Part shown: positions 3,410 to 36,043 of the stretch, in pieces
Numbering within the stretch: the first letter of the stretch is position 1
How the letters are laid out: every line of letters begins with the position of its first letter
Source of the DNA: Olivibacter jilunii
Lineage (GTDB): Bacteria; Bacteroidota; Bacteroidia; Sphingobacteriales; Sphingobacteriaceae
DNA: 64,000 bases
Assembly: GCF_900607235.1 (NCBI RefSeq)
Contig: NZ_LR027851.1
Location: 372,001 to 436,000, forward strand
Direction of reading: 5' to 3'
Translations under genes and position numbers: made by a program
Notes under the pieces: model-generated
What the model saw: only the letters and a program-made list of their open reading frames with translations
Database searches by the model: none
Told to the model about the DNA's origin: nothing

Positions 3410-3436
3410 GAGCCGATTATTTCTTTTAATCGGCTC
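3410..3436. repeat. Inverted repeat GAGCCGATTA, 7-base loop
   Basis: GAGCCGATTA at 3410-3419 and its exact complement TAATCGGCTC at 3427-3436 are separated by seven bases. It lies ten bases before a longer palindrome with the same GAGCCGATT core. Confidence 0.8.
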
Positions 3437-3445
3437 AAAAAAATG

Positions 3446-3488
3446 ACATATTTGAGCCGATTATATACACGAATCGGCTCAAATATGT
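3446..3488. repeat. Perfect 17-bp inverted repeat
   Basis: The left arm ACATATTTGAGCCGATT (3446-3462) is exactly complementary to the right arm at 3472-3488, with a 9-base loop. No T-run follows on either strand, so it is not an obvious terminator. The same core, AGCCGATTA, occurs in repeat mosaics at about 2730 and 25962. Confidence 0.85.
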
Positions 3489-3770
3489 ACAACTGGCAAT
3501 ATAAAGATTGGCCTAATTTCATTACCTTAAAGCTTAAAACTTATAGCTTACACCTTATTGATCGCTGACTGCCGAAAGCTGCCATCCGATAGCTGAAAGC
3601 TAATGCTGACGGCTGCTCCTAAGCCCCATGGTACGGAATTAAAGAAAAATGGCACGATATAAGAAGGGTTTTAGTAATAATGTCTTTAACTTAGTCTTAC
3701 AAAGAACAAACCGAGTTTAACGATCTCGCCTATACGTTTGAGATTTAACACTCATAGATAATTTAATTGG

Positions 3771-4679: not shown

Positions 4680-4691
4680 GATCAAAAAATG

Positions 4692-7460
4692 TTATTTGAT
4701 TTTACTTTTATACTGACTGGGCGAGTATCCAAATTTGGCTTTGAAAGTGGTTGAAAAATAGCTGGGGCTGGAAAAACCCACGGCGTAGGTGATTTCTGCA
4801 ACATTTAAAGATTCATGTTTAAGCAGGTAAGAGGCCTTTTTTAATCTGCGCTCCAGAATATATTCATTAACGGTCATGCCGGTCAACGATTTAACTTTTC
4901 GATACAGATGCATGCGGGAAATTCCGATCAGCCGACAAATATCGTCCACACAGAATCGATCGTTACTGAGGTTTTCTTCCACCACGCCGGAAAAGTCGTT
5001 TAACAATTTTTTGTCCAACGAGCTTAATTTAACACTTTCTGTCGGGAGCTCAATATTGCTGGTAAAATGACTTTTTAATACTTTTCTGTTCTTGATTAAC
5101 GCTCTAATACTCGCCGAAAGATTGCTGATCAGGAACGGTTTCGTGATGTACATGTCTACCATGGCATCCATGCCTGAAACAAGCTGCTCCGAACTTGCTT
5201 GGGCGGTAAGAAGGATGATCGGAATATGAGAGGTCTTAAGATCGTTCTTTAAGGTCCTGCATACCTCTTTACCGGATATTTCGGGTATAACATTATCGGT
5301 AATAATGAGGTCGGGTACCTTTTCTCTGGCAAGTTGAATGGCTTCGGGGCCGTTGGTGGTGTAGAATACATCGTATTCATCGCTCAGCTCTGCCACTAAA
5401 TAGTTTAAAAGATCGGGGTTGTCTTCCACAATGAGTAAAGAGTGATCCTTTAAGCCACAGGATTCCGTTTGTTTGATGTCTAGCATTTCGATGTCTGAAA
5501 CGATGGTATACATGGCAGATTTTTCGTCCTTCTTAAGTACCGGGTCATGAAGAACACCTTTTTCGCGTTCGCTTAAATGCTCGTTTCCCAGTGGAAGCGT
5601 AACTGTGAAAGTAGAACCCTGTTCTTTGACTGATGCTACCTGAATGTCTCCTTTGTGTTTGTGGATAATCTCTTTTGCTAAAGATAAACCGATACCGAAG
5701 CCATTGGATGGAGAATTGTCTGCCTGATAGTAGGGGTCAAAAATCAAGGCGAGATCTTTTTCATGCATCCCAATACCTGAATCTTTGATCTGAATGCTTA
5801 CTTCACTTCCGCAGCGGGCTATGTAAACTTTGATGAAACCTCCGGCGTTTACAAACTTGAAGGCATTTGACAAGAGATTCAACAGGGCTTTATCAAGCAT
5901 ATTGACATCAAACCATACCGGTATTTCTTTTTCTGCAGGAACAAAGGACAGTTGCACTTGTCTTTTTAAAGCGTATACTTTAAAAGGTTCGATGAGATCA
6001 CGGACAAAGGAGACCAAATTGTTTGGTGAGGCCTGTATTAAGTAGCCTTCTATTTCTATCTTTCTGAAATCTAACAACTGATTGACGATATTCAGCAGTT
6101 GTACCGAATTACGTTGCACCGCTTTTAACTTATCAGCAGCCAATGGCAAGAGGCGGGGATCTTTTACCATATCCTCGATGGGCGATAAGATCAGTGTTAA
6201 GGGCGTTCGCAGCTCATGGGTAATGTTGGTAAAAAAGTTTAAGCGTGCTTCTGTGCCGGCAGCGGCTTGTTTTGACATTTCAATTAACTGCTTCCGTTGG
6301 GTGTCGATTTCTATATTCTTCTTAGCTAGATTTTTATTGATTTTTCTGTTATCTCTTAGTAGAATGACTACAATGCTTCCAAAAATGAGCGACAATACGA
6401 GCAACACAATAATGGTATTGAGTACAACCTGCTGGCTTTTATAAACTAATTTCTGTTCGTCCAGTAGTTTACGTTGATTGTAAATGTCGTCTTTCTGGCT
6501 ACTGATCATGGCAGCCTGCATCTTCATGACACGCACATTACTTGAGTCAATTACAATGGAACTCAATTTGTTCTCTTTTCTGAAGGGGAGGCCTTTCAAA
6601 ATGTCCAGAGCTGTCCGAATGGCCTCTTTGCCGAGTGTAGGATACACCAGGGAGGCGGTAATTTTTCCGTCGTATACCATATCCAACCCTCCTCCTTCAC
6701 CAAAACAGGCGTCCACGCCGACAATGGGAATATGTTTTTCAGGATAATATTTGTTAAGAATTTTTCGTGCTCCCAGCGCCATGTTATCATTATGGGCAAA
6801 AATGGCATCTATGTCCTTCAACTGCCAGTGTATCTTGCTCAAGATATTTTTGGTGGTGTCTTCCATCCAATCGCCGGATACCGTTTTGGCAATCTTTAAA
6901 GCTTTTAACTGATTAAGTGCGGCGAAGAAGCCGGTACTTCTGTCTATCGCCGGAGAGGAACCGGATAAGCCCGTGATTTCTACAACTTTCCCTTTGTTGC
7001 CAATAAGCTGCGATAGATACTGGCCCGCCATTTCGCCGATTTCCACATTATCAGCACCGATGAATGCCGTATAGCCATTTCCCTTCACTTCCCGATCTAT
7101 TACAATGACAGGAATGCCACGATCCATCACTTTTTTTACGGTGGCAGTTAGGGGTTCGGCTTCGTTTGGTGAAATTATTAAAAGATCAATTCCTTTTTCA
7201 ATAAGCGTATCTACCTGGGCGCGTTGCGTGGTACTGTTGCCACTGGCCTCTAAATAATGAAAATCAACTTCCGGATGAAGGCTTAGCTCAGTCAACATTT
7301 CCGCAAGCATGTTTTTTCTCCATAGATCGTTACCCGTGCATTGGGAGAATCCGATGGTAAACTTATTATGCTTTTTGTTAGTGCTGCAGGAAATTATCAA
7401 CCCGAAACCCAAAAGTAAAAACACCACCACATAGGATCGATTGAAAAAAATGGTATTCAT
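4692..7460 (-). CDS. Hybrid two-component system regulator with periplasmic sugar-binding sensor (BT1754-like)
   Basis: 922 aa. Order: N-terminal membrane/signal segment (about 8-28), a type I periplasmic-binding-protein sensor domain (about 33-320, with NDNMALG and IDREV motifs), a second membrane segment (about 348-368), HisKA with phospho-acceptor H415 in THELRTP, HATPase (N-box LLNLLSNAFKF, GIGLSLAKEI), a receiver with phospho-acceptor D722 in LIITDNVIP, and a C-terminal AraC helix-turn-helix. The whole phosphorelay and the DNA-binding output are thus in one chain. Known relative: the Bacteroides sensor BT1754 binds fructose and induces the fructan locus. The gene is divergent from the importer/SusC/D/GH operon, so it most likely senses fructose and activates it. 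Confidence 0.93.
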   Translation of the reverse strand: MNTIFFNRSYVVVFLLLGFGLIISCSTNKKHNKFTIGFSQCTGNDLWRKNMLAEMLTELSLHPEVDFHYLEASGNSTTQRAQVDTLIEKGIDLLIISPNEAEPLTATVKKVMDRGIPVIVIDREVKGNGYTAFIGADNVEIGEMAGQYLSQLIGNKGKVVEITGLSGSSPAIDRSTGFFAALNQLKALKIAKTVSGDWMEDTTKNILSKIHWQLKDIDAIFAHNDNMALGARKILNKYYPEKHIPIVGVDACFGEGGGLDMVYDGKITASLVYPTLGKEAIRTALDILKGLPFRKENKLSSIVIDSSNVRVMKMQAAMISSQKDDIYNQRKLLDEQKLVYKSQQVVLNTIIVLLVLSLIFGSIVVILLRDNRKINKNLAKKNIEIDTQRKQLIEMSKQAAAGTEARLNFFTNITHELRTPLTLILSPIEDMVKDPRLLPLAADKLKAVQRNSVQLLNIVNQLLDFRKIEIEGYLIQASPNNLVSFVRDLIEPFKVYALKRQVQLSFVPAEKEIPVWFDVNMLDKALLNLLSNAFKFVNAGGFIKVYIARCGSEVSIQIKDSGIGMHEKDLALIFDPYYQADNSPSNGFGIGLSLAKEIIHKHKGDIQVASVKEQGSTFTVTLPLGNEHLSEREKGVLHDPVLKKDEKSAMYTIVSDIEMLDIKQTESCGLKDHSLLIVEDNPDLLNYLVAELSDEYDVFYTTNGPEAIQLAREKVPDLIITDNVIPEISGKEVCRTLKNDLKTSHIPIILLTAQASSEQLVSGMDAMVDMYITKPFLISNLSASIRALIKNRKVLKSHFTSNIELPTESVKLSSLDKKLLNDFSGVVEENLSNDRFCVDDICRLIGISRMHLYRKVKSLTGMTVNEYILERRLKKASYLLKHESLNVAEITYAVGFSSPSYFSTTFKAKFGYSPSQYKSKIK

Positions 7461-7777
7461 GATTTATAATTCAGTTTTAAGCCACCAATTATTGACGCTA
7501 GGTTTTGGCAAATATAAGAGATTGGATCTTTTGGGGAGAGAAAAAAGCATTTTCGCCATTTAGGTGGTTAAACACCGATGGTATAATACTTGAAAAAGAT
7601 GGTACGCTGACGAAAACGTACAGTGAATAATTCATCTTTGTTTTTGTAATTATTTGATAGTCAGATGGATAATTTTTGTTATAAAAATGAAATGATTTGA
7701 TCATTTGCAGCAGCTCCTTCTCTTTTTACCGGCCTACCTTGCACAGCAAATTCAACAAATCAAGATAGATCTATATT
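7461..7777. other. Divergent regulatory region between the hybrid sensor and the fructan operon
   Basis: 317 bases without a convincing gene. The region must hold both promoters. On the sensor side a -7-like TATATTTG is present; on the operon side only a weak TACCTTGC (about 7735) was seen. The activator's binding site could not be picked out by eye. Confidence 0.5.
7509..7516 (-). promoter_or_regulatory. -7 element TATATTTG of the hybrid sensor gene
   Basis: Read on the minus strand the bases are TATATTTG, a full match to the Bacteroidetes -7 consensus TAnnTTTG, 49 bases upstream of the ATG at 7460. No good -33 TTG was found at the expected distance, so the promoter is likely but weak. Confidence 0.4.
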
Positions 7778-9115
7778 ATGAAAAATCACATGGTGAAACT
7801 ATGGTCGGTAGTGGTGGCTTTGGGCGGCTTTCTTTTTGGCTTCGACACTGCAGTTATTTCCGGGGCCGAAAAAGCCATTGAGCAATATTGGCAGCTCACG
7901 ATTTTTGAACATGGCTTTACCATTTCGGTGGCGCTCATCGGAACCGTTATTGGATCGTTACTCGGATCCTATCCGACGGATAAATTGGGACGTAAAAAAA
8001 CATTATACCTGGTGGCATTGGCCTATCTTTTTGCTTCTCTTGGAACGGCATTTACCACCAGCTGGCACCTTTTTGTACTCTTCCGTTTTATTGGTGGCTT
8101 GGGCGTAGGTGCTTCTTCGGTTACGGCACCTATTTATATATCAGAAATCGCACCGTCGGATAGGCGCGGTGCATTGGTAGGGCTGTTTCAATTTAATGTT
8201 GTATTGGGAATTTTGATCTCCTACTTGTCTAACTATTTAATCAATCAGTTAGAGGGAGAGTCATGGCGCTTAATGCTGGGCATCCAGGCCGTGCCGTCTC
8301 TCCTTTTCCTAATAGCGATTTATTTTATTCGAGAAAGCCCAAGATGGTTGCTGACGAATGGATTGCGGAGAGAAGAAGCTATAGAAACATTAAGTATTAT
8401 CAACCCACTAGGTTATCAACAAGAGCTCATTGCAATTGAAAATACAGCAAAACTAAAAGCCGTTAACAAACAGCCAGCCCTCTTTGTAAAAGCGTATCGC
8501 AGGCCATTGGTATTGGCCGGGCTGTTTGCGCTCTTTAATCAATTTTCAGGCATTAATGCCATTATTTACTATGCACCACGCATTTTTGAAATGGCCGGGT
8601 TGGGTGTTCATTCTTCATTGCTTTCAACAATCGGCATTGGTATGACCAATTTTGTGTTTACGCTATTGGCTGTCCAATTGATTGATAAGGTAGGTAGACG
8701 AATGTTGATGAAAATTGGCTCCATTGGCATTATTATTTCCCTTCTACTGGTTGTTTTTTCTTTTAATAATCCGGCATCATCAGGTATGTATATTTCGCTG
8801 TACTTTATGCTTTTTATCGCCTGTTTTGCCTTCTCTCAAGGGGCCGTTATTTGGGTCTTTATTGCAGAAATTTTTCCCAATCAGGTGCGGGCAAAGGGGC
8901 AAACCTTTGGAAGTTCTATCCACTGGATTTTGGCGGCGTTGGTGACTTTTTCCTTTCCTATACTGGCAGAGGCGCTTGGAGGCATGATGACCTTTCTATT
9001 CTTTGCGATAATGATGGTGTTGCAACTGGTGTTTGTGATTTGGTGGATGCCCGAAACGAAAGGTATCAGCTTAGAAGCTATCGAGGCACAATTGGCCAAT
9101 GAGCCACTGACATAA
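7778..9115 (+). CDS. MFS sugar porter, probable fructose/hexose importer
   Basis: 445 aa with twelve predicted membrane segments. Sugar-porter signatures are present in order: GRKKTLYLV after TM2, a PSDRRGALVGLFQ loop, PESPR-type RESPRWLL, QFSGINAIIYYAPRIF in TM7, VGRRMLMKIG after TM8, and the C-terminal PETKG. Such carriers (XylE/GLUT group) bring hexoses over the inner membrane with protons. It is the first gene of the plus-strand operon, 53 bases ahead of susC, and faces the sensor gene. Relatives in Bacteroides fructan loci (BT1758 type) import fructose; that specificity here is inferred. Confidence 0.92.
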   Translation: MKNHMVKLWSVVVALGGFLFGFDTAVISGAEKAIEQYWQLTIFEHGFTISVALIGTVIGSLLGSYPTDKLGRKKTLYLVALAYLFASLGTAFTTSWHLFVLFRFIGGLGVGASSVTAPIYISEIAPSDRRGALVGLFQFNVVLGILISYLSNYLINQLEGESWRLMLGIQAVPSLLFLIAIYFIRESPRWLLTNGLRREEAIETLSIINPLGYQQELIAIENTAKLKAVNKQPALFVKAYRRPLVLAGLFALFNQFSGINAIIYYAPRIFEMAGLGVHSSLLSTIGIGMTNFVFTLLAVQLIDKVGRRMLMKIGSIGIIISLLLVVFSFNNPASSGMYISLYFMLFIACFAFSQGAVIWVFIAEIFPNQVRAKGQTFGSSIHWILAALVTFSFPILAEALGGMMTFLFFAIMMVLQLVFVIWWMPETKGISLEAIEAQLANEPLT

Positions 9116-9168
9116 CTTGTCTATTAACCATATAATAAACCGAAACTAATCTAATTAATTAACCAAAT

Positions 9169-12100
9169 ATGAAAAAGCAAGTATTGATTGCATACTGTAT
9201 AAGTATGTTTTTTCTCCTTCGTGCGGCGGCGCAGGAAGTTGTAATCTCCGGAATAGTACGAGATACAAGCTCGGTTCCGCTGGAAGGAGTTACGGTGTCT
9301 ATTGTTGGAAAAACCGGTTCTGTTATTACTGACAATAAGGGGATGTATCGCATTGCGGCTGCTGTTGGGCAAAGCATCTCCTTCAGTATGTTGGGAAGTG
9401 AATCGGTCCGGGTGACGATTAGAAACGGCGACCCGATCAATGTGGTCATGAAAACCAGCTTGAATGCCCTTGAGGATGTTATTGTAACGGGCTATACCTC
9501 AGAGCGCAAAAGGGACTTAACGGGTGCTGTTTCTGTTGTTAAAATGGCAGATATTGAAAATGTGCCGCTGGGCAACCCGGTAAAAGCTATGCAAGGGCGG
9601 GTTCCGGGAGTAGAGGTTGGCGCGAGCGGTGCACCGAATGGGGGTGTTACGGTGCGCATGCGAGGCCAAACCACACTGAATATTAGCAATGACCCCCTAT
9701 ATATTATAGATGGCGTGCCAACGCAAAGGGGATTACAGGAGATTAATCAGAACGACATCGAATCGATGCAGGTATTACGCGATGCATCGGCTGCTTCGAT
9801 TTATGGATCGAGAGCGGCAGCGGGAGTGATTATTGTGACCACCAAGCGAGGTAAATCAGGCCTTCGGCGGATTGATGTAGATGCTTCACATTCCCTGCAG
9901 TTTTATAATAGTAAAATTAATACCTTGAATACCGATCAGCGCGCACGGGCTTATTGGCAGGCTGCTGTAAATGACGGACGTTTCGGCCCGTCTCGTAATA
10001 ATCCGCAGGATCCTTCTACCTTAAGTTTGATTTACGATTTTGATTGGAATAAGGATTTTTCGAATCCGCAATTGAATGCGGTAATCCTGGGGCAATACGT
10101 GGATCCTGAGCAGTCGATGCACACATCGGACACCCGGTGGTTTGACGAAGTTTCGCGGGTTTCGCAGATTAAACAATATAATGTTGCTCTTTCCAATGGC
10201 GGACAGCATGGAACGTCCTTCTTCTCGTTAGGTTATTATGACAATGAGGGTATCATCAAAGGTACGCGAAGCCAGCGATTAACCTTACGTATGAACGTAG
10301 ACCATGCGCTGTTTAATGGTAAACTGAAGATAGGGGAGAATCTAAACCTTTCGTATTTTAAGGACGCACAAATACCAACGGGCGACGTCACCTCGCTGGC
10401 CTTGATATTGAATCCCATTTTACCGGTTCGTACGGTTAATGGTGGTTGGGGTGGCCCCGTGGCCGGGATGGACGATCGGCAAAATCCGGTCAGATTGATC
10501 GAAGATAATAGACAGAATAACAACCACTTTGCCCGCATTTTGAGCAGTACATTTGCGGATCTTTCCGTTTTACCGGGCTTGAATTTTAGAACGGCTTTTA
10601 ATGTGGATTATGCAGGTACTTTTTATCGTCATTTGCAGTTGCCATACCGGTCAGGCTTTTTAAACAGTGATGTTACGCAGGTTAATACCAATTTCGACTA
10701 CAGTGGATCATTAACCTGGCAAAATATATTGACCTATGACTTGAATTCGAATGACCACCGTGTTAATTTCCTTTTGGGATCTGAAACGGTTAATAATAGG
10801 TACCAGGGATTTAATGCCAGTGCACAAGGGCTAGCTATTGCCGATCTGAACTATGCTTACTTGACGCAAGGTACGCGAAATATACTTGCCCGCGGCGATG
10901 GCAATTCGGACGCGCTACAGTCATTTTTCTTTAAAGCAAACTATAATTATCATGATCGATACTTAGCTTCTGTGACCATTCGGAGAGATGGTTCGAGTAA
11001 GTTCGGTTCGAACAATCGCTACGCGAATTTCCCCGCCGCCTCTCTGGGATGGCGCATCAGTGAAGAGGCCTTTTTTAAAGACAATGTAAATTTCATTTCG
11101 GATTTTAAACTCCGGTATAGCTGGGGGCAAACGGGTAATCAAAGCATTCCTGCATATGCTACCTATTCACTCTATCGTGCCATTTATGGAACGGACCTGA
11201 CCTGGGAACCAAGCGAAGGCAGCGCTTATGACATAGGTGGACAGGGCACCGGTACGCTTCCTACCGGATATACCGCCATCCAAACCGGAAACCCGGATCT
11301 TAAATGGGAAACCACCACGCAATCTAATTTTGGAGCGGATTTTGGATTGTTCTCCAATCGGCTTATCGGTTCAGTTGAATATTATATAAAGAATACAGAC
11401 GATATTTTGATCAGCCCGCCTTACTTGGGCGTAGTAGGTGAAGGGGGAAATACATGGATTAACGGTGCTTCGCTGCAAAACAAGGGCTTGGAGGCGGCGA
11501 TCAGTTATAGCCAAGATTTGACCGAGGATATTCAATTGGATATTGCGGCTAATATTACCAGAAACCGTTTAAAGATAACAGCGCTTCCTAACAATGCAAT
11601 TATCGGTTACCCAGGTAATGGTACAACCTACACGATTATCGGACACTCGCCAAATACGCACTTCGGTTGGGTGGCTGATGGCTTGTTCACGACGCAAGAG
11701 GAAGTTGATAACAGCCCGGAACAGCCGGGAAAGGCACTTGGTCGCATCCGTTACCTTGACCTTGATCAGAATGGACGGATTGATAATAACGACCAGCAGT
11801 ACTTAGGTACCTCGGATCCTGATTTTACTTACGGCTTGAATTTAACCCTAAGCTATAAGCGATTCAATATTGCCGTTTTCTTTCAGGGCGTACAGGGAGG
11901 AGTCGTAAATAATAGCTATAAAAATCTGACAGATTTTACTTCGCTGGCACCGGGATCAAATTGGGGCAGCCGCGTAATGGATGCTTGGACCCCTGAGAAC
12001 GCCGGGGCAAGTGTTCCTGCCTTAACTTTGGTCAATACGAATAATGAGAACAGATTTTCAACCTATTTTTTAGAGCCTAGAAGTTATTTCAAATTACGGA

Positions 12101-12291
12101 ACATTGAAATCGGATATGATCTGAAGGATGCTTTTGAAAGGTTTAATGTAACGCGGGCACGTGTATACATGCAGGCATCTAACTTGCTACGTTGGAAGAA
12201 CCGGGCCTATACAGCTCCAGATCCTGAAAATCCGGGGAACGCCTATCCGATACCGGTAATTGCAACAGTGGGTTTTAATCTATCCTTCTAA
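9169..12291 (+). CDS. susC: SusC-type TonB-dependent outer-membrane transporter of the fructan locus
   Basis: 1040 aa. Signal peptide (residues 1-22, ending RAAAQ), then a carboxypeptidase-regulatory-like beta domain (about 25-105), then the plug (VIVTGYTSERKRDLTGAV … DPLYIIDGVP … DASAASIYGSRAAAGVI) and a C-terminal 22-strand beta-barrel ending in an aromatic residue (FNLSF). It imports oligosaccharides across the outer membrane using TonB energy, capped by the SusD lipoprotein encoded 39 bases downstream. The genes around it point to fructans or fructo-oligosaccharides as the cargo. Confidence 0.95.
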   Translation: MKKQVLIAYCISMFFLLRAAAQEVVISGIVRDTSSVPLEGVTVSIVGKTGSVITDNKGMYRIAAAVGQSISFSMLGSESVRVTIRNGDPINVVMKTSLNALEDVIVTGYTSERKRDLTGAVSVVKMADIENVPLGNPVKAMQGRVPGVEVGASGAPNGGVTVRMRGQTTLNISNDPLYIIDGVPTQRGLQEINQNDIESMQVLRDASAASIYGSRAAAGVIIVTTKRGKSGLRRIDVDASHSLQFYNSKINTLNTDQRARAYWQAAVNDGRFGPSRNNPQDPSTLSLIYDFDWNKDFSNPQLNAVILGQYVDPEQSMHTSDTRWFDEVSRVSQIKQYNVALSNGGQHGTSFFSLGYYDNEGIIKGTRSQRLTLRMNVDHALFNGKLKIGENLNLSYFKDAQIPTGDVTSLALILNPILPVRTVNGGWGGPVAGMDDRQNPVRLIEDNRQNNNHFARILSSTFADLSVLPGLNFRTAFNVDYAGTFYRHLQLPYRSGFLNSDVTQVNTNFDYSGSLTWQNILTYDLNSNDHRVNFLLGSETVNNRYQGFNASAQGLAIADLNYAYLTQGTRNILARGDGNSDALQSFFFKANYNYHDRYLASVTIRRDGSSKFGSNNRYANFPAASLGWRISEEAFFKDNVNFISDFKLRYSWGQTGNQSIPAYATYSLYRAIYGTDLTWEPSEGSAYDIGGQGTGTLPTGYTAIQTGNPDLKWETTTQSNFGADFGLFSNRLIGSVEYYIKNTDDILISPPYLGVVGEGGNTWINGASLQNKGLEAAISYSQDLTEDIQLDIAANITRNRLKITALPNNAIIGYPGNGTTYTIIGHSPNTHFGWVADGLFTTQEEVDNSPEQPGKALGRIRYLDLDQNGRIDNNDQQYLGTSDPDFTYGLNLTLSYKRFNIAVFFQGVQGGVVNNSYKNLTDFTSLAPGSNWGSRVMDAWTPENAGASVPALTLVNTNNENRFSTYFLEPRSYFKLRNIEIGYDLKDAFERFNVTRARVYMQASNLLRWKNRAYTAPDPENPGNAYPIPVIATVGFNLSF

Positions 12292-12330
12292 TATATTTTC
12301 CATCATCATCTGATTTAAAAATACTAGCAA

Positions 12331-14052
12331 ATGAAAAATTTACCTGTCATAATATTGGTTGTGTATGCCATCTTGTTTTTTGGCTGCTCGAAAAATTTGG
12401 AAAAACTGCCGCAAGGCGTCGTGTTTAATGAAAATCTGAAAACACCCGAAAATGTGGAGGCGATGGTAATCAGTGCTTACTCAGCCTTGGGTAATGATCA
12501 TTGGAGTACACCTTATACAACGATGTGGGCCTACGGAAGTGTGCGGGGCGGAGACGCTTACAAGGGCGGGGGCGGAACGGGCGACCAGAACGACGTGCAC
12601 GCTTACGAATTGTTTTCAATCAATCGGGTAGACCTCGGAGAAAGTGATGGTACTTGGTTCCGTTTGTATGTGGGCGTGGCGAGATGTAATGCAGCCTTAG
12701 CGCTGCTGAATGAAATAGGTGATGACATATTCCCACAGAAGTTAATGCGCATTGCTGAAGTACGTTTCCTTCGGGCACACTTTTATTTTCTATTAAAAAT
12801 TCTTTTTAAACGAGTACCTTACATCGACGAAAGTGTTGAAAAATCAGCCTATCAAACTATCGGGAATGATCTGTACAGTAACGATGAACTATGGACAAAA
12901 ATAGCAGAAGATTTTCGCTTTGCTACACAGCATTTACCGCTGGCGCAGGCAGAGTCATCGCGTATTACAAAGGGGGCTGCCCAATCTTACCTAGCAAAAA
13001 CATTGCTTTACCAAAGTTATGTGCAGGATGATCAGCATAATGTGTTATCAAAAGACCAAGCGAAATTGAATGAAGTAGTAGCGTATTGCGACAGTGTGAT
13101 CAATTCGGGAAGATATCGCCTTTCTGAAGATTTTGCGGAAAATTTTCTTTCCGAATATGAAAATGGTCCAGAGACGGTATTTGCCATCGTTTTCTCAAAA
13201 AGCGACGGCACACCACAAGGACGGATTAATGCCGGTGTGGGAACCAATTATCCTATGAACCAGGAATATGGTTGCTGTGGATTTCATCAGCCGAGTTCTA
13301 ATCTGGTGAACGCATTTAAAACGAATGCTGACGGATTGCCGCTGCTGGATGACTATAATGCCCATGATGTTGTTCCTACCGGAGATTTTAAAATGCAAAG
13401 CTTCGATACGCGTTTGGATCATACTGTGGCCATTCCCGGACATCCCTATAAATACCAAAAAGATCTGGTGTTTCAGGCTTCATGGAATCGTGACAATGCC
13501 ACTTATGGCAACTTTATGAGTATGAAAGAAACGGTTGCTTATACCGATCCGACTTTTATGAAATATCCACCTTTTATGTCGAGCGCTAAAGATTGGCCGG
13601 TGATTAGGTATGCGGATGTGTTACTCATAAAAGCGGAAGCTTTAATTGAACTGGGACGTGAACAAGAGGCACTGCCACTAATTAATTTGATTAGGCAACG
13701 CGCGCAGAAAAGTGCGGCACGATTGACACAGGCAGATGGTAGGCCTACTTCCAGTTACTTTATCGATACTTATCAGCCAGGAGTGAATTGCGTTTGGACC
13801 AATGAATTTGCGCGTAAAGCGCTGCGTTTTGAACGCAGATTGGAATTTGCTATGGAAGGTTATCGCTTTTTTGACCTCGTTCGGTGGGGTATTGCGGCCG
13901 AGTTTATTAATGATTATTTTTCTGCTGAGCAAAGAAGAACACCCCATTTGGCGGGCGCCGCTTTCAAGAAAAACAGAGATGAGTATTTACCGATCCCACA
14001 GAATCAAATTAACTTTAGTCAGGGTTTATACGTGCAGAACTTCGGCTGGTAA
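12331..14052 (+). CDS. susD: SusD/RagB-family surface lipoprotein of the fructan locus
   Basis: 573 aa. The lipoprotein signal ends at LFFGC, giving a lipidated C19. The SusD N-terminal region with TPR helices and the C-terminal RagB/SusD domain are recognisable from KGAAQSYLAKTLLY, VIRYADVLLIKAEALIELG and RFERRLEFAMEGYRFFDLVRWG. It forms the lid over the SusC barrel and binds glycan at the cell surface. It is followed after 85 bases by the GH172 gene. No further surface glycan-binding lipoprotein (SusE/F-like) is encoded here. Confidence 0.95.
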   Translation: MKNLPVIILVVYAILFFGCSKNLEKLPQGVVFNENLKTPENVEAMVISAYSALGNDHWSTPYTTMWAYGSVRGGDAYKGGGGTGDQNDVHAYELFSINRVDLGESDGTWFRLYVGVARCNAALALLNEIGDDIFPQKLMRIAEVRFLRAHFYFLLKILFKRVPYIDESVEKSAYQTIGNDLYSNDELWTKIAEDFRFATQHLPLAQAESSRITKGAAQSYLAKTLLYQSYVQDDQHNVLSKDQAKLNEVVAYCDSVINSGRYRLSEDFAENFLSEYENGPETVFAIVFSKSDGTPQGRINAGVGTNYPMNQEYGCCGFHQPSSNLVNAFKTNADGLPLLDDYNAHDVVPTGDFKMQSFDTRLDHTVAIPGHPYKYQKDLVFQASWNRDNATYGNFMSMKETVAYTDPTFMKYPPFMSSAKDWPVIRYADVLLIKAEALIELGREQEALPLINLIRQRAQKSAARLTQADGRPTSSYFIDTYQPGVNCVWTNEFARKALRFERRLEFAMEGYRFFDLVRWGIAAEFINDYFSAEQRRTPHLAGAAFKKNRDEYLPIPQNQINFSQGLYVQNFGW

Positions 14053-14137
14053 TTAAATTCCTCTATAAAATACGTCATTCATGGCATATAAAATGAATTT
14101 ATCTAAGTTTGAAAAAGGGAACCAATAAATAAATCAA

Positions 14138-15709
14138 ATGAAAACTAAAATTCTTTTACTGATTTGTGCAACCATTGGTTTTGCAGTCCGTTACGGCCAT
14201 TGTCAGGAAGTGGTCAATACGGAGAAGTTATTGCAAGAGATGCGTGAGGTTGAGGAGGTTGCTCGCTATCCTGAACCTGCATATACATTAAAACAAGTAA
14301 GCAGTTATGACAGAAGATCCACCGTGCGCAATAGGGCGGGATGGTTTGCAAATAGTGATTTTAATCAGTTTATCCGTCGGGAAGAGCATGAAGGACGAGA
14401 AGAGCATGTGATGATGGACGCTGAAGGCCCAGGTGCAATTGTCCGTTTTTGGCTCACCTGTTTGGAAAAACCCGGAACGATGCGTTTTTATTTTGATCAT
14501 GAAAAGGAAGCTAGGATTACGGTTCCCGGGTTTGATTTATTGAAGGCAGGATTGGGGTTGGGGCCGGCATTGTTGAACCCGCATACGAATTATGATCCGC
14601 GGGGAAAGGGAGGGAATACGTTATATTTACCTTTGGTTTATGCGAAGCATTGCAAAATAACATGGGAGTTTGCTGATAGTGCAAGTAAAAAGAAGCCTCA
14701 TTATTATCAGATCAACTACCGAACATATCCAAAAAATATAAAAGCCGAAACGTTTTCCTTTGAGCAGTTACGACGATTAAAAAAAGAAATTGATAATACA
14801 GAAAGTGTCCTTTGGAACCCATCGGCAAATTTTAGCGTAACGGATTCTATCTCAAAAAAATTGAACCCTGCGGAGGAATGTGCGCTGAATTTAAGGGATG
14901 CTCATAAGGCTATTCGTCTGCTTAAAATCCAAATGAGTAAGTTAAACCGCGATCAGGAGGCGCTCTGGAGGAACGTGGTATTGAAAATATCCTTTGATGG
15001 CAAGGAAACGGTATTGTGCCCCTTGGGTGATTTTATAGGTAGCGGCTATGGGGGGAGCGATATAGCAAGTTGGTATAGAACGCTCGCAAATAAACAAACG
15101 CTCGTCTCACGATGGGTGATGCCTTTTCAGAAGTCGGCAGTGATACGCTTAATCAATAACAATAATTTTCCTGTCGAATTAAGTCTTTCAGTTGGAACGG
15201 ATGATTTTAAATGGGATGAACGAGCAATGTATTTTCATGCCTTCACAAAAATGGAAGAACACGTATGGGACGCTAAGTGGGATTATGATGCGGAGAAGAA
15301 CCCCAAAGGGGATGCCCGCGCACCGATTGACTGGAATTTCATTGCGATCAAGGGTAAAGGGGTATATGTTGGTAATACCTTAGCGACGCTGAATCATATG
15401 AATTCATGGTACGGGGAAGGGGATGCTAAAGCTTATGTCGACGGGGAAGCTTTTCCGTCTGAATTTGGTACAGGATTGGAGGATTATTACAACACCTCAT
15501 GGGCGCCGGTGGTTATTTACCAAACACCTTTTGCCAATGCAACACGGGCGGATCATACTTCGTCAACAGGACATAATACATTTACCCGGACGCGCATACT
15601 GGATGCCATACCTTTTAGTAAGCAATTTTCATTTGATATGGAAATGCTCAGCTGGGATAGTGGTTATGTGGATATTGCGGCAACAACCTATTGGTATGCC
15701 AGGCCTTGA
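14138..15709 (+). CDS. Glycoside hydrolase family 172 (DUF2961) protein
   Basis: 523 aa with an N-terminal signal peptide (about 1-22, ending GHC/QEV), so it is exported. The DUF2961 region covers most of the chain, from SYDRRSTVRNRAGWFANSD and GPGAIVRFWLT to WYGEGDAKAYVDGE and GTGLEDYYNTSW. DUF2961 is now GH172; its first characterised member is the difructose-dianhydride-I synthase/hydrolase of Bifidobacterium dentium, and other members are alpha-D-arabinofuranosidases. From memory, that enzyme's two catalytic glutamates are 21 residues apart; here E427 (GEGD) and E448 (GLEDY) have the same spacing. In this locus it probably acts on an alpha-fructofuranoside or difructose anhydride. The fold assignment is firm, the substrate inferred. 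Confidence 0.88.
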   Translation: MKTKILLLICATIGFAVRYGHCQEVVNTEKLLQEMREVEEVARYPEPAYTLKQVSSYDRRSTVRNRAGWFANSDFNQFIRREEHEGREEHVMMDAEGPGAIVRFWLTCLEKPGTMRFYFDHEKEARITVPGFDLLKAGLGLGPALLNPHTNYDPRGKGGNTLYLPLVYAKHCKITWEFADSASKKKPHYYQINYRTYPKNIKAETFSFEQLRRLKKEIDNTESVLWNPSANFSVTDSISKKLNPAEECALNLRDAHKAIRLLKIQMSKLNRDQEALWRNVVLKISFDGKETVLCPLGDFIGSGYGGSDIASWYRTLANKQTLVSRWVMPFQKSAVIRLINNNNFPVELSLSVGTDDFKWDERAMYFHAFTKMEEHVWDAKWDYDAEKNPKGDARAPIDWNFIAIKGKGVYVGNTLATLNHMNSWYGEGDAKAYVDGEAFPSEFGTGLEDYYNTSWAPVVIYQTPFANATRADHTSSTGHNTFTRTRILDAIPFSKQFSFDMEMLSWDSGYVDIAATTYWYARP

Positions 15710-15793
15710 TGTACGGGCGATGATAATAAGAAGCAATAAATAAAGAATGACTAGCCTTTGGCTCGACTTAATAAATGATAAAAAAACAAACAG

Positions 15794-17437
15794 ATGAGAA
15801 CTTTTGCGATCAAATTTTTAACAATTGCCCTGCTGTCGATTAACTATCTTCCATTAAGTGCAGGTGAGATTGAAATCAAAATCAATAAGAAATACCTTAA
15901 CTTTCCGGTATCACATAAGGAAGAGCGCCGGAAGATGACTTTCAGTGTGGATGGTAAAGCTGATCTTTCGGTGGTTATTAGACTGACTAAAGCTACACCT
16001 GATTATTGGGTTTTTAAAGATGTTTCGGATTTGCGAGGAAAAACATTGAAGATAAGCTATGAGGGTGATGAGGCAGGACTGGCGAAAATTTATCAGAATG
16101 ATAAACTGGCTGGACAAGATAGCCTTTATAAAGAGAAAAATCGGCCACAGTTTCATTTTACGACCCGCAGGGGATGGATCAATGATCCGAATGGTTTACT
16201 TTTTTATGAAGGGGAGTATCATTTGTTTTACCAGCATAATCCTTATGAGAATGAATGGGAGAATATGCACTGGGGGCATGCAGTGAGTAAAGATTTGGTA
16301 CACTGGACGGAGTTGCCGGATGCACTTTATCCGGATGAGCTGGGAACGATGTTTTCAGGTTCGGCTGTAATCGATTATAACAATACAGCTGGTTATAATA
16401 AAGGTAAAACGCCCGCTATGGTAGCTGCTTATACGGCAGCCGGGCCGGATAAGCAGGTGCAGTGTATTGCCTACAGCCTCGATAAAGGGCGGACGTTTAC
16501 AAAATACGAATCGAATCCAATCATTGATTCCAAAGCGAAGTGGAATAGCCCGGACACGCGCGATCCGAAGGTGTTTTGGTACAAACCGGGAAAACACTGG
16601 GTAATGGTGCTTAACGAGCGGGATGGTCATTCTATCTATACCTCTAACGATTTGAAAAAGTGGAACTACGAAAGTCATGTTACCGGTTTTTGGGAGTGCC
16701 CCGAACTTTTCGAACTGCCGGTAGATGGGGATATCAATAATACCAAATGGGTGATGTATGGTGCTTCGGGTACTTATATGCTGGGGTCTTTTGATGGGAA
16801 AGTGTTTAAGCCGGAAGCTGGTAAATATGTCTATACAACAGGATCAGTTTATGCGGCACAAACCTTTACGGATATGCCGGACGGACGACGTGTGCAAATT
16901 GGCTGGGGACAAATAACACATCCCGGTATGCCTTTTAGAGGGATGATGCAATTGCCAACGGAGCTAACGCTGCGCAATACGAAAGAGGGCCCCCGCCTTT
17001 TTAGTCGGCCCGTTAAAGAAACAGAACAGCTTTTTACATCGGTTCGGAAGGAAACGAACTTAACAACCGAACGTGCTAATCAATTGCTTGCACCATATTC
17101 GGAGGCGGATGGCTTGCGGGTGAAGACGACCATTAAATTGTCTCATGCCACTAGTGCCGGGCTTAATCTTTTTGGGCAACGAATTGTAGATTATGATTTG
17201 AATTATAATAAACTGAATGGTCTGTTTTATTCGCCGAACGATCCAACCAGTATGGAAATTTCGGCCGATATTTACATCGATAAAACCAGCGTTGAAGTAT
17301 TTATTGATGGCGGTGCCTACTCTTATTCCATGCCTAGAAAAGCGGAAGACAATAATAAAGAAGGCTTCCATTTCTGGGGAAATAATATTGAGGTAACTGA
17401 TTTGGAGATCTTAAACGTTCGATCTATCTGGAATTAG
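15794..17437 (+). CDS. GH32 beta-fructosidase (levanase/inulinase/invertase type)
   Basis: 547 aa with signal peptide (1-24, LPLSAG). An all-beta N-terminal stretch of ~110 residues precedes the five-bladed propeller. The three catalytic motifs are intact: WINDPNG (nucleophile D131), TRDPKVF (transition-state stabiliser D257) and WECPEL (acid/base E301). The C-terminal beta-sandwich (about 400-547) is typical. GH32 enzymes release fructose from beta-2,1 or beta-2,6 fructans or sucrose. Last gene of the operon, 84 bases after the GH172 gene, followed by a strong hairpin. Whether it acts on inulin, levan or sucrose, endo or exo, cannot be read from the sequence. Confidence 0.95.
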   Translation: MRTFAIKFLTIALLSINYLPLSAGEIEIKINKKYLNFPVSHKEERRKMTFSVDGKADLSVVIRLTKATPDYWVFKDVSDLRGKTLKISYEGDEAGLAKIYQNDKLAGQDSLYKEKNRPQFHFTTRRGWINDPNGLLFYEGEYHLFYQHNPYENEWENMHWGHAVSKDLVHWTELPDALYPDELGTMFSGSAVIDYNNTAGYNKGKTPAMVAAYTAAGPDKQVQCIAYSLDKGRTFTKYESNPIIDSKAKWNSPDTRDPKVFWYKPGKHWVMVLNERDGHSIYTSNDLKKWNYESHVTGFWECPELFELPVDGDINNTKWVMYGASGTYMLGSFDGKVFKPEAGKYVYTTGSVYAAQTFTDMPDGRRVQIGWGQITHPGMPFRGMMQLPTELTLRNTKEGPRLFSRPVKETEQLFTSVRKETNLTTERANQLLAPYSEADGLRVKTTIKLSHATSAGLNLFGQRIVDYDLNYNKLNGLFYSPNDPTSMEISADIYIDKTSVEVFIDGGAYSYSMPRKAEDNNKEGFHFWGNNIEVTDLEILNVRSIWN

Positions 17438-17538
17438 GGATGATGTTTGTGACCTGCTAGTAGTGCTAAGTAGTTCAGTCGGTAAGTAGTAAAATAGCGC
17501 TAATAACGTGGCTGCGGCACCACTGAAAACCAAAAATA

Positions 17539-17578
17539 GGGAATTAGTAATGCCTGCCGACAGGCATTACTAATTCCC
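17539..17578. terminator. Bidirectional terminator: perfect 18-bp inverted repeat
   Basis: GGGAATTAGTAATGCCTG (17539-17556) pairs exactly with 17561-17578 around a CCGA loop. It sits between the convergent GH32 and terpene synthase genes; an A-rich stretch precedes it (T-rich for the minus strand) and TTAATACTTAAAT follows. The GCCTG-CCGA-CAGGC centre is shared with small palindromes elsewhere in the window (about 1094, 32144), so a mobile palindrome may have been recruited here. Confidence 0.75.
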
Positions 17579-17603
17579 TTAATACTTAAATATAAATGTC
17601 GCT

Positions 17604-18608
17604 TTATTCCGGGCCTTGGTATTCGGGTTCTACATAGCCACCGGGAACGTAGCGGGATTTATCATTGGTATGCCAGGCGTATACGCCTTGTATCATAATC
17701 CCGATTGTATATACGTAATCATAGGCAAGTTCCTGCCACCGCCCGAAATTTGGTAAGTGCTCGTGTAGTATCTTAAACTCGTTTAGAAGCTTATCATGAT
17801 AATCCAGGGCCATCTTATAGGCTTCTTCCCATGATACGTTATTTTCATTGTGTATAACTTTTACGATATTGATGACATCACCTTTCCGACTCAACTCCTT
17901 CGGTAATGAGATTATGTCGTTATGCACGCCGATCATAAGGGCTGCCAAGGTGTGCAAGCTCAAAATATGGGGATGTTCTAACACCTCATCGGGCAAATTG
18001 CGAAAATCTTTTTGCATGGCTACATATTTACAAAAAGGTAAACCGCCACTGGTATCTTCGCGAAGTACCAAATAGACTGGGAATGGGGGCATAGTATCGG
18101 CCTTCATATAGCGTTTTTCATCCTGATAACCGATTAACAGGGTATGAATACTAGCTATGAATTTATCATACAGCCGCTGTGGCATGCCACATTTAATGGC
18201 CCGTTGCCTTATTAAGTAGAACTGACGGAATATGCCGAAGTCTGTAGGCTCTTCTTTCTCTTGTCCACTGAGTATGGCCATACTCCGTTGTCTTATACGA
18301 CACATTTCTTCGTGGCTACAATGGTCAAAATAATCATCCATCATGGCTCCATTGGCTGCGAAACTTGCGATCGGAAATAGCTCATCCAGCGTTTTTAAGA
18401 AGGGTAAACCACGGGCTGCTATATCTGTCAGCACATGCTTTTTGTGTGTTTCGCGTGCTTTCTCGGAATGAAAGGTATAATCTGTATCGATCCAATTATA
18501 ATATATTTCCCGCATCTCTTGTGCAAAGGGAGAAATTAGATTAGGGAAAGGATATTCAGGACGTTGCATGTTTTGGAATAATGCGTAGAATTCTTGTTCC
18601 TTTGTCAT
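17604..18608 (-). CDS. Class I terpene synthase family protein
   Basis: 334 aa, the usual length of a bacterial sesqui-/diterpene cyclase, with no signal peptide. The aspartate-rich metal motif is DDYFD (D91, D92, D95) and the second metal motif is a perfect NDxxSxxxE: NDIISLPKE with N230, S234 and E238. A C-terminal RY pair is visible in KSRYVPGG. These residues bind three Mg ions and the diphosphate of a prenyl substrate. No prenyltransferase, P450 or methyltransferase lies next to it, so the product cannot be guessed. It stands between the terminator of the fructan operon and a 2.1-kb repeat field. Confidence 0.9.
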   Translation of the reverse strand: MTKEQEFYALFQNMQRPEYPFPNLISPFAQEMREIYYNWIDTDYTFHSEKARETHKKHVLTDIAARGLPFLKTLDELFPIASFAANGAMMDDYFDHCSHEEMCRIRQRSMAILSGQEKEEPTDFGIFRQFYLIRQRAIKCGMPQRLYDKFIASIHTLLIGYQDEKRYMKADTMPPFPVYLVLREDTSGGLPFCKYVAMQKDFRNLPDEVLEHPHILSLHTLAALMIGVHNDIISLPKELSRKGDVINIVKVIHNENNVSWEEAYKMALDYHDKLLNEFKILHEHLPNFGRWQELAYDYVYTIGIMIQGVYAWHTNDKSRYVPGGYVEPEYQGPE

Positions 18609-18930
18609 TGTGTCGAGTTTTTAACGATTTAAACATGCCGCAACTGCTCTGTTAACAGCACGATTACTATTCCATAAAGAAACTAACGTTTATAATATTA
18701 AATAAATATAATTATCTATTTATTAAAAAAGGAAAGTTCATTCTGTTCATTTTGTTCGATGTCAGTGAAAGCCGTTGGTTGAGTAGCTAAGTAGTTGAGT
18801 TGTTGAGTGGTTAAGTAGTTGAGTTGTTGAGTAGCTAAGTTGTTAAGTAGTTGAGTGGTTAAGTTGTTGAGTGGTTAAGTAGTTGAGTAGTTAAGTGGTT
18901 GAGTTGTCGAGTGGTTAAGTAGTTGAGTTG

Positions 18931-19461
18931 TCGTTGCAAGTGATGAAATCACACGGGGCTCTCGCGGGTGGTACAAAACGGCCTTCTAGGGTGAGCGTAA
19001 AGAAAATTCAATTAGAAGGGTAGAAAAAACGTTATGCGAAGAAGTGGAGGGAAAGAAATGAGGATTGGGGCGGCTCCGCAGAACGGCGCGGGGCAATTGA
19101 ATTTTTAGCGAAACCTAGACAGCCTTGACTTTTGGTTCTTTTTGTCAAGAAAAAGAACAACAAATAATATTAATTAGAAATAATCATGAAATCCTTAGAA
19201 GGAAAGCCGACATCCGAAAGCTGATACAAATGATGAGTGATGAATTTCAGTTGTGAGGATAGTTAACTAGTTGAGTAGTTAAGTGGTTAAGTTGTTGAGT
19301 GGTTAAGTAGTTGAGTAGTTAAGTGGTTAAGTAGTTGAGTAGTTAAGTGGTTAAGTAGTTGAGTAGTTAAGTGGTTAAGTAGTTGAGTTGTTGAGTGGTT
19401 AAGTTGTTGAGTTGTCGAGTGGTTAAGTAGTTGAGTAGCTAAGTGGTTGAGTCGTGAGTTG
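18931..19461. repeat. 531-bp tandem repeat, copy 1
   Basis: Starts at TCGTTGCAAGTGATGAAATC. The unit has a ~330-bp unique part (including a GGTTCTTTTTGTCAAG/AAAAAGAAC hairpin and a ~103-bp stretch bounded by an 11-bp inverted repeat) and a ~200-bp TTRAGTNG octamer array. By eye it is identical to copy 2 base for base. Confidence 0.85.
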
Positions 19462-19992
19462 TCGTTGCAAGTGATGAAATCACACGGGGCTCTCGCGGGT
19501 GGTACAAAACGGCCTTCTAGGGTGAGCGTAAAGAAAATTCAATTAGAAGGGTAGAAAAAACGTTATGCGAAGAAGTGGAGGGAAAGAAATGAGGATTGGG
19601 GCGGCTCCGCAGAACGGCGCGGGGCAATTGAATTTTTAGCGAAACCTAGACAGCCTTGACTTTTGGTTCTTTTTGTCAAGAAAAAGAACAACAAATAATA
19701 TTAATTAGAAATAATCATGAAATCCTTAGAAGGAAAGCCGACATCCGAAAGCTGATACAAATGATGAGTGATGAATTTCAGTTGTGAGGATAGTTAACTA
19801 GTTGAGTAGTTAAGTGGTTAAGTTGTTGAGTGGTTAAGTAGTTGAGTAGTTAAGTGGTTAAGTAGTTGAGTAGTTAAGTGGTTAAGTAGTTGAGTAGTTA
19901 AGTGGTTAAGTAGTTGAGTTGTTGAGTGGTTAAGTTGTTGAGTTGTCGAGTGGTTAAGTAGTTGAGTAGCTAAGTGGTTGAGTCGTGAGTTG
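19462..19992. repeat. 531-bp tandem repeat, copy 2
   Basis: Starts exactly 531 bases after copy 1 and I found no difference from it, including inside the octamer array. Identity over a stretch that should mutate quickly indicates very recent duplication or ongoing homogenisation. Confidence 0.85.
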
Positions 19993-20660
19993 TCGTTGCA
20001 AGTGATGAAATCACACGGGGCTCTCGCGGGTGGTACAAAACGGCCTTCTAGGGTGAGCGTAAAGAAAATTCAATTAGAAGGGTAGAAAAAACGTTATGCG
20101 AAGAAGTGGAGGGAAAGAAATGAGGATTGGGGCGGCTCCGCAGAACGGCGCGGGGCAATTGAATTTTTAGCGAAACCTAGACAGCCTTGACTTCTGGTTC
20201 TTTTTGTCAAGAAAAAGAACAACAAATAATATTAATTAAAAATAATCATGAAATCCTTAGAAGGAAAGCCGACATTCGAAAGCTGATACAAATGATGAGT
20301 GATGAATTTCAGTTGTGAGGATAGTTAACTAGTTGAGTAGTTAAGTGGTTAAGTTGTTGAGTGGTTAAGTAGTTGAGTTGTTGAGTGGTTAAGTAGTTGA
20401 GTAGTTAAGTAGTTGAGTTGTTAAGTAGTTGAGTTGTCGAGTCGTTAAGTAGTTGAGTTGTCGAGTGGCTAAGTAGTTGAGTTGTCGAGTCGTTAAGTAG
20501 TTGAGTAGTTAACTAGTTGAGTGGTTAAGTAGTTGAGTTGTTGAGTGGTTAAGTAGTTGAGTTGTTGAGTGGTTAAGTAGTTGAGTTGTTGAGTGGTTAA
20601 GTAGTTGAGTTGTCGAGTGGTTAAGTAGTTGAGTTGTCGAGTGGTTAAATAGTTGAGTTG
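19993..20660. repeat. 531-bp tandem repeat, copy 3, with diverged octamer tail
   Basis: The unique part repeats that of copies 1 and 2 with three visible base changes (20194, 20239, 20276). The octamer array that follows (from about 20325) is arranged differently and runs on to about 20660, ending the tandem block. An oldest-copy-at-the-right-end order fits these differences. Confidence 0.8.
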
Positions 20661-21167: not shown

Positions 21168-21731
21168 ATGAATACGACGGAACTAATGACTTGGGGCGAT
21201 TTCAAATCCCAATTGACAAGGAATGTAGAGGCTATTTTACAATTTCAGTACGCCGAAGATAAATGGGTGGATGCCTCATACCATATCACCGAGATTAAAC
21301 AAGCGCCTATTACTTCGGTTGATTGTGGAGGTGTGATGAATGCCTGGACGGAGATTATTGTGCAGCTTTGGGAGCCGGCTTCGGACGGTTCGGAAAGGGC
21401 CATGAAGGTGGGTAAAGCCTTGTCGATTATTGAATTGGTAGAGAAGTCCCTTCCTTTAAATCCTGGCGGTATTGTTAAGATTGAATTTGGTAATTCGGAA
21501 TTTGATACCCGTCAACTATTTCCGGGGAACTTGATTTTGAAAGGTGAAAACCTCGTAGTTGACCTTATTCCGGATGCTACGCAATGCAAAGCGATTGGGC
21601 GTGGTGGTAGTTGTGGTCCGAAGGATCAGAACGAGACATGCTGTGCGCCCGCTCAGGAAGAAGAAAGCCAAAATAGGATGGTCAATCTAGCGACTATCCA
21701 AAGTTGTACCCCCGGTTCCGGATGCTGCTAA
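21168..21731 (+). CDS. DUF6428-family protein of arsenic operons, Cys-rich tail
   Basis: 187 aa, cytoplasmic. The first ~145 residues (MTWGDFKSQL … YHITEIKQAPITSVDCGG … KIEFGNSEFDTRQLFPG) match the DUF6428 family that I know from arsenic operons of Bacteroidetes, with unknown function. The tail is rich in cysteine (GGSCGPKDQNETCCAP … SCTPGSGCC), which could bind As(III) or another soft metal. It sits between arsR and the acetyltransferase, 37 bases after arsR. A metallochaperone role is possible but not shown. Confidence 0.75.
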   Translation: MNTTELMTWGDFKSQLTRNVEAILQFQYAEDKWVDASYHITEIKQAPITSVDCGGVMNAWTEIIVQLWEPASDGSERAMKVGKALSIIELVEKSLPLNPGGIVKIEFGNSEFDTRQLFPGNLILKGENLVVDLIPDATQCKAIGRGGSCGPKDQNETCCAPAQEEESQNRMVNLATIQSCTPGSGCC

Positions 21732-21744
21732 AACAAATTAACTA

Positions 21745-22236
21745 ATGGAAATTAGTATCATTACTGAAACAGACTGGCCCGCAGTGCGCGCTATTTATCT
21801 ACAGGGAATAGCAACTGGCCAGGCAACTTTTCAAACAGAAGCACCAAGTTGGGAGGATTGGGATCGATCGCATCTCAGGCATTCTCGTTTTTTAGCAAGC
21901 GTTGATGGGAGCGTTGCGGGATGGGCGGCTCTTTCTCCGGTTTCAAGTCGTTGCGTTTATGCCGGTGTGGCGGAAGTAAGTGTATACGTACATGAAGATT
22001 ACCGTGGAAAAGGTGTGGGTGATTTGTTGATGAATACACTCATAGAAAGTAGCGAAGCGCAAGGTCTCTGGACTCTTCAGTCCGGTATTTTCCCGGAAAA
22101 TGAGGCAAGTATTCGCCTACATGAAAAGCATGGCTTTCGGAAATTGGGCTATCGGGAAAAGGTTGGTAAACACGAGAATACGTGGCGCAATACGATATTA
22201 ATGGAACGTCGGAGTAAGACGGTAGGAATTGACTAA
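21745..22236 (+). CDS. GNAT N-acetyltransferase, ArsN/phosphinothricin acetyltransferase-like
   Basis: 163 aa, a complete GNAT fold with acetyl-CoA loop VSVYVHEDYRGKGVGDLLM and C-terminal ENEASIRLHEKHGFRKLGY. The order of motifs matches the phosphinothricin acetyltransferase (PAT/bar) group. Members in arsenic operons, called ArsN, acetylate the arsenic antibiotic arsinothricin. Here it lies 13 bases after the DUF6428 gene and 17 bases before arsC, so it belongs to the same transcript. The substrate is inferred from that context. Confidence 0.82.
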   Translation: MEISIITETDWPAVRAIYLQGIATGQATFQTEAPSWEDWDRSHLRHSRFLASVDGSVAGWAALSPVSSRCVYAGVAEVSVYVHEDYRGKGVGDLLMNTLIESSEAQGLWTLQSGIFPENEASIRLHEKHGFRKLGYREKVGKHENTWRNTILMERRSKTVGID

Positions 22237-22253
22237 ATAAAACAAAAAGAACA

Positions 22254-22691
22254 ATGAAGAAAATTTTGGTATTATGTACCGGCAATAGCTGCCGCAGTCA
22301 GTTGGCAGAAGGTTATTTACGGCATTTTGCGCAAGGAAAGGCTGAGGTATACAGCGCGGGAATTGAAACGCACGGCGTTAATCCGAAAGCGATACAGGTC
22401 ATGAAAGAGGACGGTATCGACATCTCCGGGCACACCTCCAATCATGTAGATGAATACAGCCATATTGATTTCGATTATGTCATCACCGTGTGTGACAATG
22501 CAAAGGAAAGCTGTCCTTACTTCCCTACCAAAGCGAAGCAGTTTCATCACAATTTTCCCGATCCGGCAAAGGCGGTGGGCACTTCAGAAGAAATCCTGAA
22601 CGAGTTTCGGGCGGTCAGGGATCTGGTTAAAGCCTATATGAAGGATTTTATCGATGAACATGTTAATAACGAACGATATGTCAGCGAATAA
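22254..22691 (+). CDS. arsC: Arsenate reductase, low-molecular-weight phosphatase type
   Basis: 145 aa. P-loop CTGNSCRSQ with nucleophile C8, and a redox pair C80/C87 in [10 protein letters not shown], the layout of thioredoxin-coupled ArsC (C10, C82, C89 in the staphylococcal enzyme). It reduces As(V) to As(III) for export. Its 3' end overlaps the start of the pump gene by 14 bases, so the two are probably translated together. Confidence 0.93.
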
Positions 22692-35993: not shown

Positions 35994-36043
35994 TAGATTA
36001 TAATTGTTGTTGTGATGTATCCATGGTTGTTAGCGGCCATTGC

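Follow-up and report, generated by a model that had tools for sequence, protein, structure and literature searches.

The levan PUL of Bacteroides thetaiotaomicron (BT1754-BT1765), which to our knowledge contains no GH172 gene, has a sensor, a SusD, a kinase and a GH32 homologous to those of the locus described here. The founding enzyme of GH172 is alphaFFase1 of Bifidobacterium dentium (BBDE_2040, PDB 7V1V), described as intracellular and accompanied by an ABC transporter. The roles and mutants of its catalytic residues E270 (acid/base) and E291 (nucleophile), its other reference active-site residues and the pairing of GH172 with GH32 in B. dentium have been published (PMC8605356). The family also includes the D-arabinofuranosidases ExoMA1 (8IC8) and DgGH172c (8AH3), as well as DgGH172b of Dysgonomonas gadei, which is reported to have 1.5 DUF2961 domains and to form a dimer (PMC10115798). 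A GH172 within a fructan PUL has been noted in passing for PUL 32 of Bacteroides uniformis, which carries four GH32, one GH172 and CBM38 (PMC9905522).

The GH172 gene and its fructan-type locus

The window, a stretch of 64,000 nucleotides from Olivibacter jilunii (contig NZ_LR027851.1, positions 372,001 to 436,000), contains a gene at 14138-15709 (+) encoding 523 amino acids. Its assignment to GH172 (DUF2961) in a preliminary description is borne out by the Pfam profile PF11175, which matches with 208 bits (E 1.7e-61; cut-off 27); the alphaFFase1 sequence of 7V1V matches with 77 bits, and the nearest named relative is an Olivibacter domesticus protein with 87% identity. Residues 1-22 (14138-14203, +) form a probable signal peptide, judged from a hydrophobic stretch recognised by eye and from a helix at 2-18 in the AF2 model. 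The enzyme is thus predicted to be periplasmic and belongs to a SusCD locus, in contrast to alphaFFase1.

The gene lies between SusD and GH32, as had been described, in the order SusC, SusD, GH172, GH32 on one strand, with gaps of 85 bp (SusD-GH172) and 84 bp (GH172-GH32). The SusC TonB-dependent transporter (9169-12291, +) matches TIGR04056 with 777 bits. SusD (12331-14052, +) is of the levan type: its best PDB match is 5LX8/6Z8I (E 5e-128), which we take to be BT1762 (the PDB title is SusD homolog), and the next different PDB protein reaches only E 3.5e-31. The GH32 beta-fructosidase (547 aa; 15794-17437, +) has the exo-inulinase 8I12 as its best PDB match and is the only clear GH32 in the genome (254 bits, against 34 or fewer for the others). 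Upstream are a PfkB-family kinase (3771-4679, +) and a hybrid two-component sensor (4692-7460, -), placed close by in the preliminary description as a fructokinase and a BT1754-like sensor, and their best matches agree with this. The kinase, a probable fructokinase, matches 2QHP (E 8e-50), presumably a B. theta kinase (deposited under the title fructokinase); the NCBIfam fructokinase model is also its best model, yet it scores under the cut-off. The fructose-sensor domain matches 2X7X (E 4e-63), which we take to be that of BT1754 (the PDB title is sensor protein), and is identical to it at 20 of 20 signature residues, positions chosen because they are conserved or, judging from ribose-binding proteins, should lie close to the pocket. 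For the MFS sugar porter between sensor and SusC (7778-9115, +; over the TIGR00879 cut-off) we infer fructose as the likely imported substrate. SusCD, GH32, fructose sensor and fructokinase are therefore together in one locus, which by homology is a fructan PUL. It differs from the levan PUL of B. theta in that SusD keeps the vicinal Cys of BT1762 but has Leu in place of W85 (reference residues from PMC7782687), and in that no annotated surface endo-enzyme, endo-levanase or surface glycan-binding gene was seen in the window locus.

A consensus scan found a 19-pair stem at 17538-17579 (no strand assigned) in the interval between GH32 and the terpene synthase gene. The total count of stems is not above that in shuffled sequences; this one stands out by length, being the longest by far, and is likely the end of the operon. 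A promoter scan gave 24 sites, no more than in shuffles, and Rfam gave no match over 3000-20000. Directly after GH32, on the opposite strand, is a terpene synthase family 2 gene (17604-18608, -). Elsewhere in the window, 21168-23736 (+) encodes a small protein whose tail is rich in cysteine, a GNAT-like protein and a transporter of the SBF family that may be an ACR3 arsenite efflux protein, and looks like an arsenic resistance cluster, while 34578-40664 (-) carries a sulfatase, a SusD and then a 1025-aa ORF, probably SusC, a separate glycan locus.

Catalytic site, domain architecture and clade

Besides the adjoining GH32 gene, the window GH172 shares with alphaFFase1 the DUF2961 fold, the catalytic pair and most of the -1 residues. 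The proposal that E427 (15416-15418, +) and E448 (15479-15481, +) are the catalytic glutamates agrees with a gap-free alignment in which they fall on acid/base E270 and nucleophile E291 of 7V1V; both are Glu in all aligned rows and lie in the GEGxx...GTxED motifs. In the -1 subsite W424, D449 and W455 align with W267, D292 and W298 of alphaFFase1; N272 corresponds to D429 and G299 to A456. The region of the window protein corresponding to the +1-subsite residues Glu85' and Lys147' has no reliable alignment. The preliminary description had also compared the distance between the two glutamates, 21 residues, with that in the founding enzyme. The count is correct, but it does not link the protein to alphaFFase1, since 94 of the 95 rows in the 500-aa group share this spacing, and so do three solved GH172 chains out of four (alphaFFase1, DgGH172c and 4KQ7; the fourth, ExoMA1, has 22), with 19 in the 640-aa group. 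Being a family trait common to the D-arabinofuranosidase DgGH172c, the spacing is uninformative on fructose, and we rejected it as a marker of alphaFFase1 activity. DgGH172b, compared here by description, has a monomer of about 73 kDa, which fits the 640-aa group, where W424 is lost and the spacing is 19.

Whereas alphaFFase1 consists of two jelly rolls and a long C-terminal helix, the window GH172 is predicted to have three jelly rolls. The AF2 model (pLDDT 91.6, pTM 0.91) places its strands in three blocks, and in Foldseek the top matches are all GH172, with E values between 1e-20 and 1e-16 for each of the four solved structures, mostly over ~310-350 columns, giving the double jelly-roll fold plus one additional jelly roll. 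The domains are predicted as an extra N-terminal jelly roll 1a (~residues 44-230; 14267-14827, +), delimited by a profile match, a second Pfam stretch and alignments; jelly roll 1b (~233-360; 14834-15217, +), delimited approximately by alignment, AF2 strands and hhalign; and the catalytic jelly roll 2 (~361-523; 15218-15706, +), aligned to residues 201-361 of 7V1V with an approximate boundary. Two separate Pfam DUF2961 matches occur within the protein. In hhalign the profile of residues 44-232 matches that of 233-392 (E 5.4e-6, probability 86%), and neither profile matches the C-terminal part. In jelly roll 1a, N72/D74 align with the Ca ligands N31'/D33' of alphaFFase1 and Y189 with Y187', which in that enzyme are supplied by the adjacent subunit (PMC8605356); jelly roll 1b repeats jelly roll 1 but lacks the N-x-D and Tyr residues. 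N72, D74 and Y189 would thus replace residues that a neighbouring subunit gives in alphaFFase1, and by analogy with DgGH172b the protein may assemble from two chains with two active sites.

Closeness of the protein to alphaFFase1 is not borne out by the phylogeny. In a tree of 122 rows, built on the DUF2961 core with a quick method, the window GH172 is found in a clade of 53 rows, and all four solved GH172 are across a fully supported branch; a more careful 49-row tree gives the same placement (100/99). With comparisons to solved enzymes restricted to the DUF2961 core, and 7V1V represented by residue 99 onward and fragments, a position of alphaFFase1 inside the window clade was rejected (p about 1e-124), while a tree with it as the closest outgroup to the 500-aa group as a whole was not (p 0.10). 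Identity to alphaFFase1 is ~20-23% over Foldseek-aligned columns; its authors delimited their subgroup by more than 47% identity and more than 79% coverage (PMC8605356). With this identity and another deep clade, the protein is outside the alphaFFase1/DFA I synthase-hydrolase subgroup. ExoMA1 and DgGH172c have the catalytic glutamates at the same or nearly the same spacing, but they belong to other clades, have Asn or Cys at the position of A456 and have D-arabinan gene neighbours.

Position 456 (A456; 15503-15505, +), where alphaFFase1 has G299 and both 4KQ7 and DgGH172c have Cys in the alignment, is Ala in 34 of 35 GH32-linked and in 4 of 4 GH183-linked rows of the window clade, Cys in 32 of 42 sister-clade rows, and Asn in ExoMA1 (aligned by eye). 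Cys304 has been described as clashing with fructose (PMC8605356); it would be the Cys aligned here under a numbering offset of 43, which we infer. The pattern at 456 is no more than suggestive.

Linkage to GH32 is frequent in the window clade. Using our own profiles, built from Pfam-confirmed members, we found a GH32 within ~10 kb in 35 of 53 window-clade rows and in none of the 65 DUF2961 rows outside the clade (Fisher p 6e-17, for rows that are related and so not independent, on contigs of uneven size), and chance adjacency was rejected on this comparison. The GH32 gene is within 300 bp of GH172, or fused to it, in 25 of the 35. In a Chthoniobacter MAG a single 1087-aa ORF (L104:1-3261) joins GH172 (23-539) to GH32 (548-1086). 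Label shuffles on the 122-row tree show the GH32 label to be clustered, a pattern that near-copies alone can produce; 14 window-clade rows have neither GH32 nor GH183 nearby, some of them on short contigs. Phylum- and class-wide searches for further orthologs and GH183 loci recovered the GH172 of the window alone and not a single GH183; the second search included no positive genome and is therefore uninformative. Two Pedobacter-type genomes have divergent GH32N-like proteins of ~493 aa adjoining GH172 (L042:10750-12228 and L050:11799-13274), which reach only 80-85 bits to Pfam GH32N, and a Pirellulales MAG has three GH172 in tandem (L116:3864-9489).

Predicted activity and alternative readings

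The best-supported reading is that the window GH172 is a periplasmic retaining exo-alpha-D-fructofuranosidase, to which we give a probability of about 0.6. This is the activity on alpha-fructofuranosides that the preliminary description had predicted, and the prediction gains from the conserved neighbourhoods (35 of 53 with GH32), from the GH172-GH32 fusion and from the contrast within the genome set out below. Since enzymes of family GH172 can take alpha-D-Fruf as well as alpha-D-Araf, the neighbours indicate the physiological role more than the chemistry. Small fructan-like or anhydride sugars would enter through the levan-type SusCD, and GH172 would open alpha-fructofuranosyl bonds, for instance in alpha-containing difructose dianhydrides or other caramel-type or branched fructosides, with E448 attacking the anomeric C2 of the alpha-fructofuranosyl unit and E427 acting as acid/base. 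GH32 would take off beta-fructosyl units, the MFS porter would import the fructose and the PfkB kinase phosphorylate it, and the BT1754-type sensor would turn the locus on.

Four orthologous loci bear on whether difructose dianhydrides are the substrate: L099:16127-19352 (Mucilaginibacter limnophilus), L108:16180-19296, L109:16121-19303 and L118 (16091-17563 and 20135-21469). They keep the fructose-type sensor, with its signature nearly unchanged, the MFS porter, the PfkB kinase and GH172, but have no GH32; instead they carry a pair of GH183/DUF4185 genes and another SusCD. GH183 is known for endo-D-arabinanase activity. Sensor, porter and kinase resemble their counterparts in GH32-type loci within each lineage (53-79% in Mucilaginibacter, 45-55% in Bacteroidales), whereas SusC and SusD form a set of their own (48-75% mutually, but 20-33% when compared with the GH32 type). 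In the GH183 of L099, the residues that align with D33, D51, R198 and E243 of EndoMA1 are retained (R198 and E243 by eye; reference residues from PMC10509167), and no fucose isomerase over the family cut-off was found in the M. limnophilus genome. These loci hint at the use of an unknown alpha-fructan or of D-arabinan: either GH183 acts on alpha-fructan, or D-arabinose takes another route, for example through the PfkB-type kinase. They would also speak for a GH172 that cleaves alpha-D-fructofuranosyl bonds within an extended alpha- or mixed-linkage fructan or EPS, not within difructose dianhydrides: once opened, DFA I requires a beta-fructosidase, and a DFA route leaves the loci without GH32 unexplained. 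The GH183 pair might be endo-alpha-fructanases and GH172 the exo-enzyme for an unrecognised alpha-D-fructofuranosyl-rich polysaccharide, the window locus being a GH32-linked sibling. We consider both the extended substrate and this division of labour unlikely. Against the former, the locus in the window contains a GH32 and lacks the annotated surface functions named above, and such a polysaccharide did not turn up in a limited literature search.

The four GH183 loci could also speak for an exo-alpha-D-arabinofuranosidase that degrades D-arabinan from Actinomycetota; the fructan-like neighbourhood would then be a coincidence or have a second function. It is true that exo-alpha-D-arabinofuranosidase is the activity of the Bacteroidota GH172 enzymes assayed and of most from Actinomycetota (PMC10115798, PMC10509167). 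The genome, however, has a separate locus with its own GH172, of the ExoMA1 clade (L062:561-16292; G000 C10), together with SusCD, a DUF6786 protein, FucI (L-fucose isomerase), a FucP-type permease, ribulokinase and GH116, resembling D-arabinan loci described in the literature (PMC10115798, PMC10509167). The GH172 pair of this genome thus appears to serve two different sugars. Markers of D-arabinan PULs, namely an isomerase, a pentulose kinase, GH183 and GH116, were not found in the window locus, and the one DUF4185 match of the genome is on another contig; DgGH172b, by contrast, is encoded in a D-arabinan PUL. Together with the GH32 fusion, the frequent GH32 adjacency and the fructose-type sensor and kinase, this leaves a D-arabinan role for the window enzyme quite improbable. 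Action on a different furanoside or ketoside, or retention mainly for binding with little catalysis, as the extra domain of the window clade and the weak activity of DgGH172b on pNP-alpha-D-Araf (PMC10115798) could suggest, is the most doubtful of all, given a catalytic Glu pair conserved in every aligned row of the clade.

Significance of the GH32-linked branch

That GH172 can occur in a fructan PUL of Bacteroidota (PMC9905522) and pairs with GH32 in B. dentium (PMC8605356) was already known; the distinct three-jelly-roll clade, its linkage and fusion to GH32 and the GH183 variant are new. The GH32-linked three-jelly-roll branch spans Bacteroidota, Verrucomicrobia and one Planctomycetaceae MAG, and gives a concrete prediction of alpha-fructofuranosidase activity for its members, Bacteroides salyersiae included. 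If the exo-alpha-D-fructofuranosidase reading is true, it would show how such bacteria use caramel-type or other alpha-linked fructose compounds. The GH183-linked siblings would then prompt one to ask whether GH183 has a second substrate besides D-arabinan.
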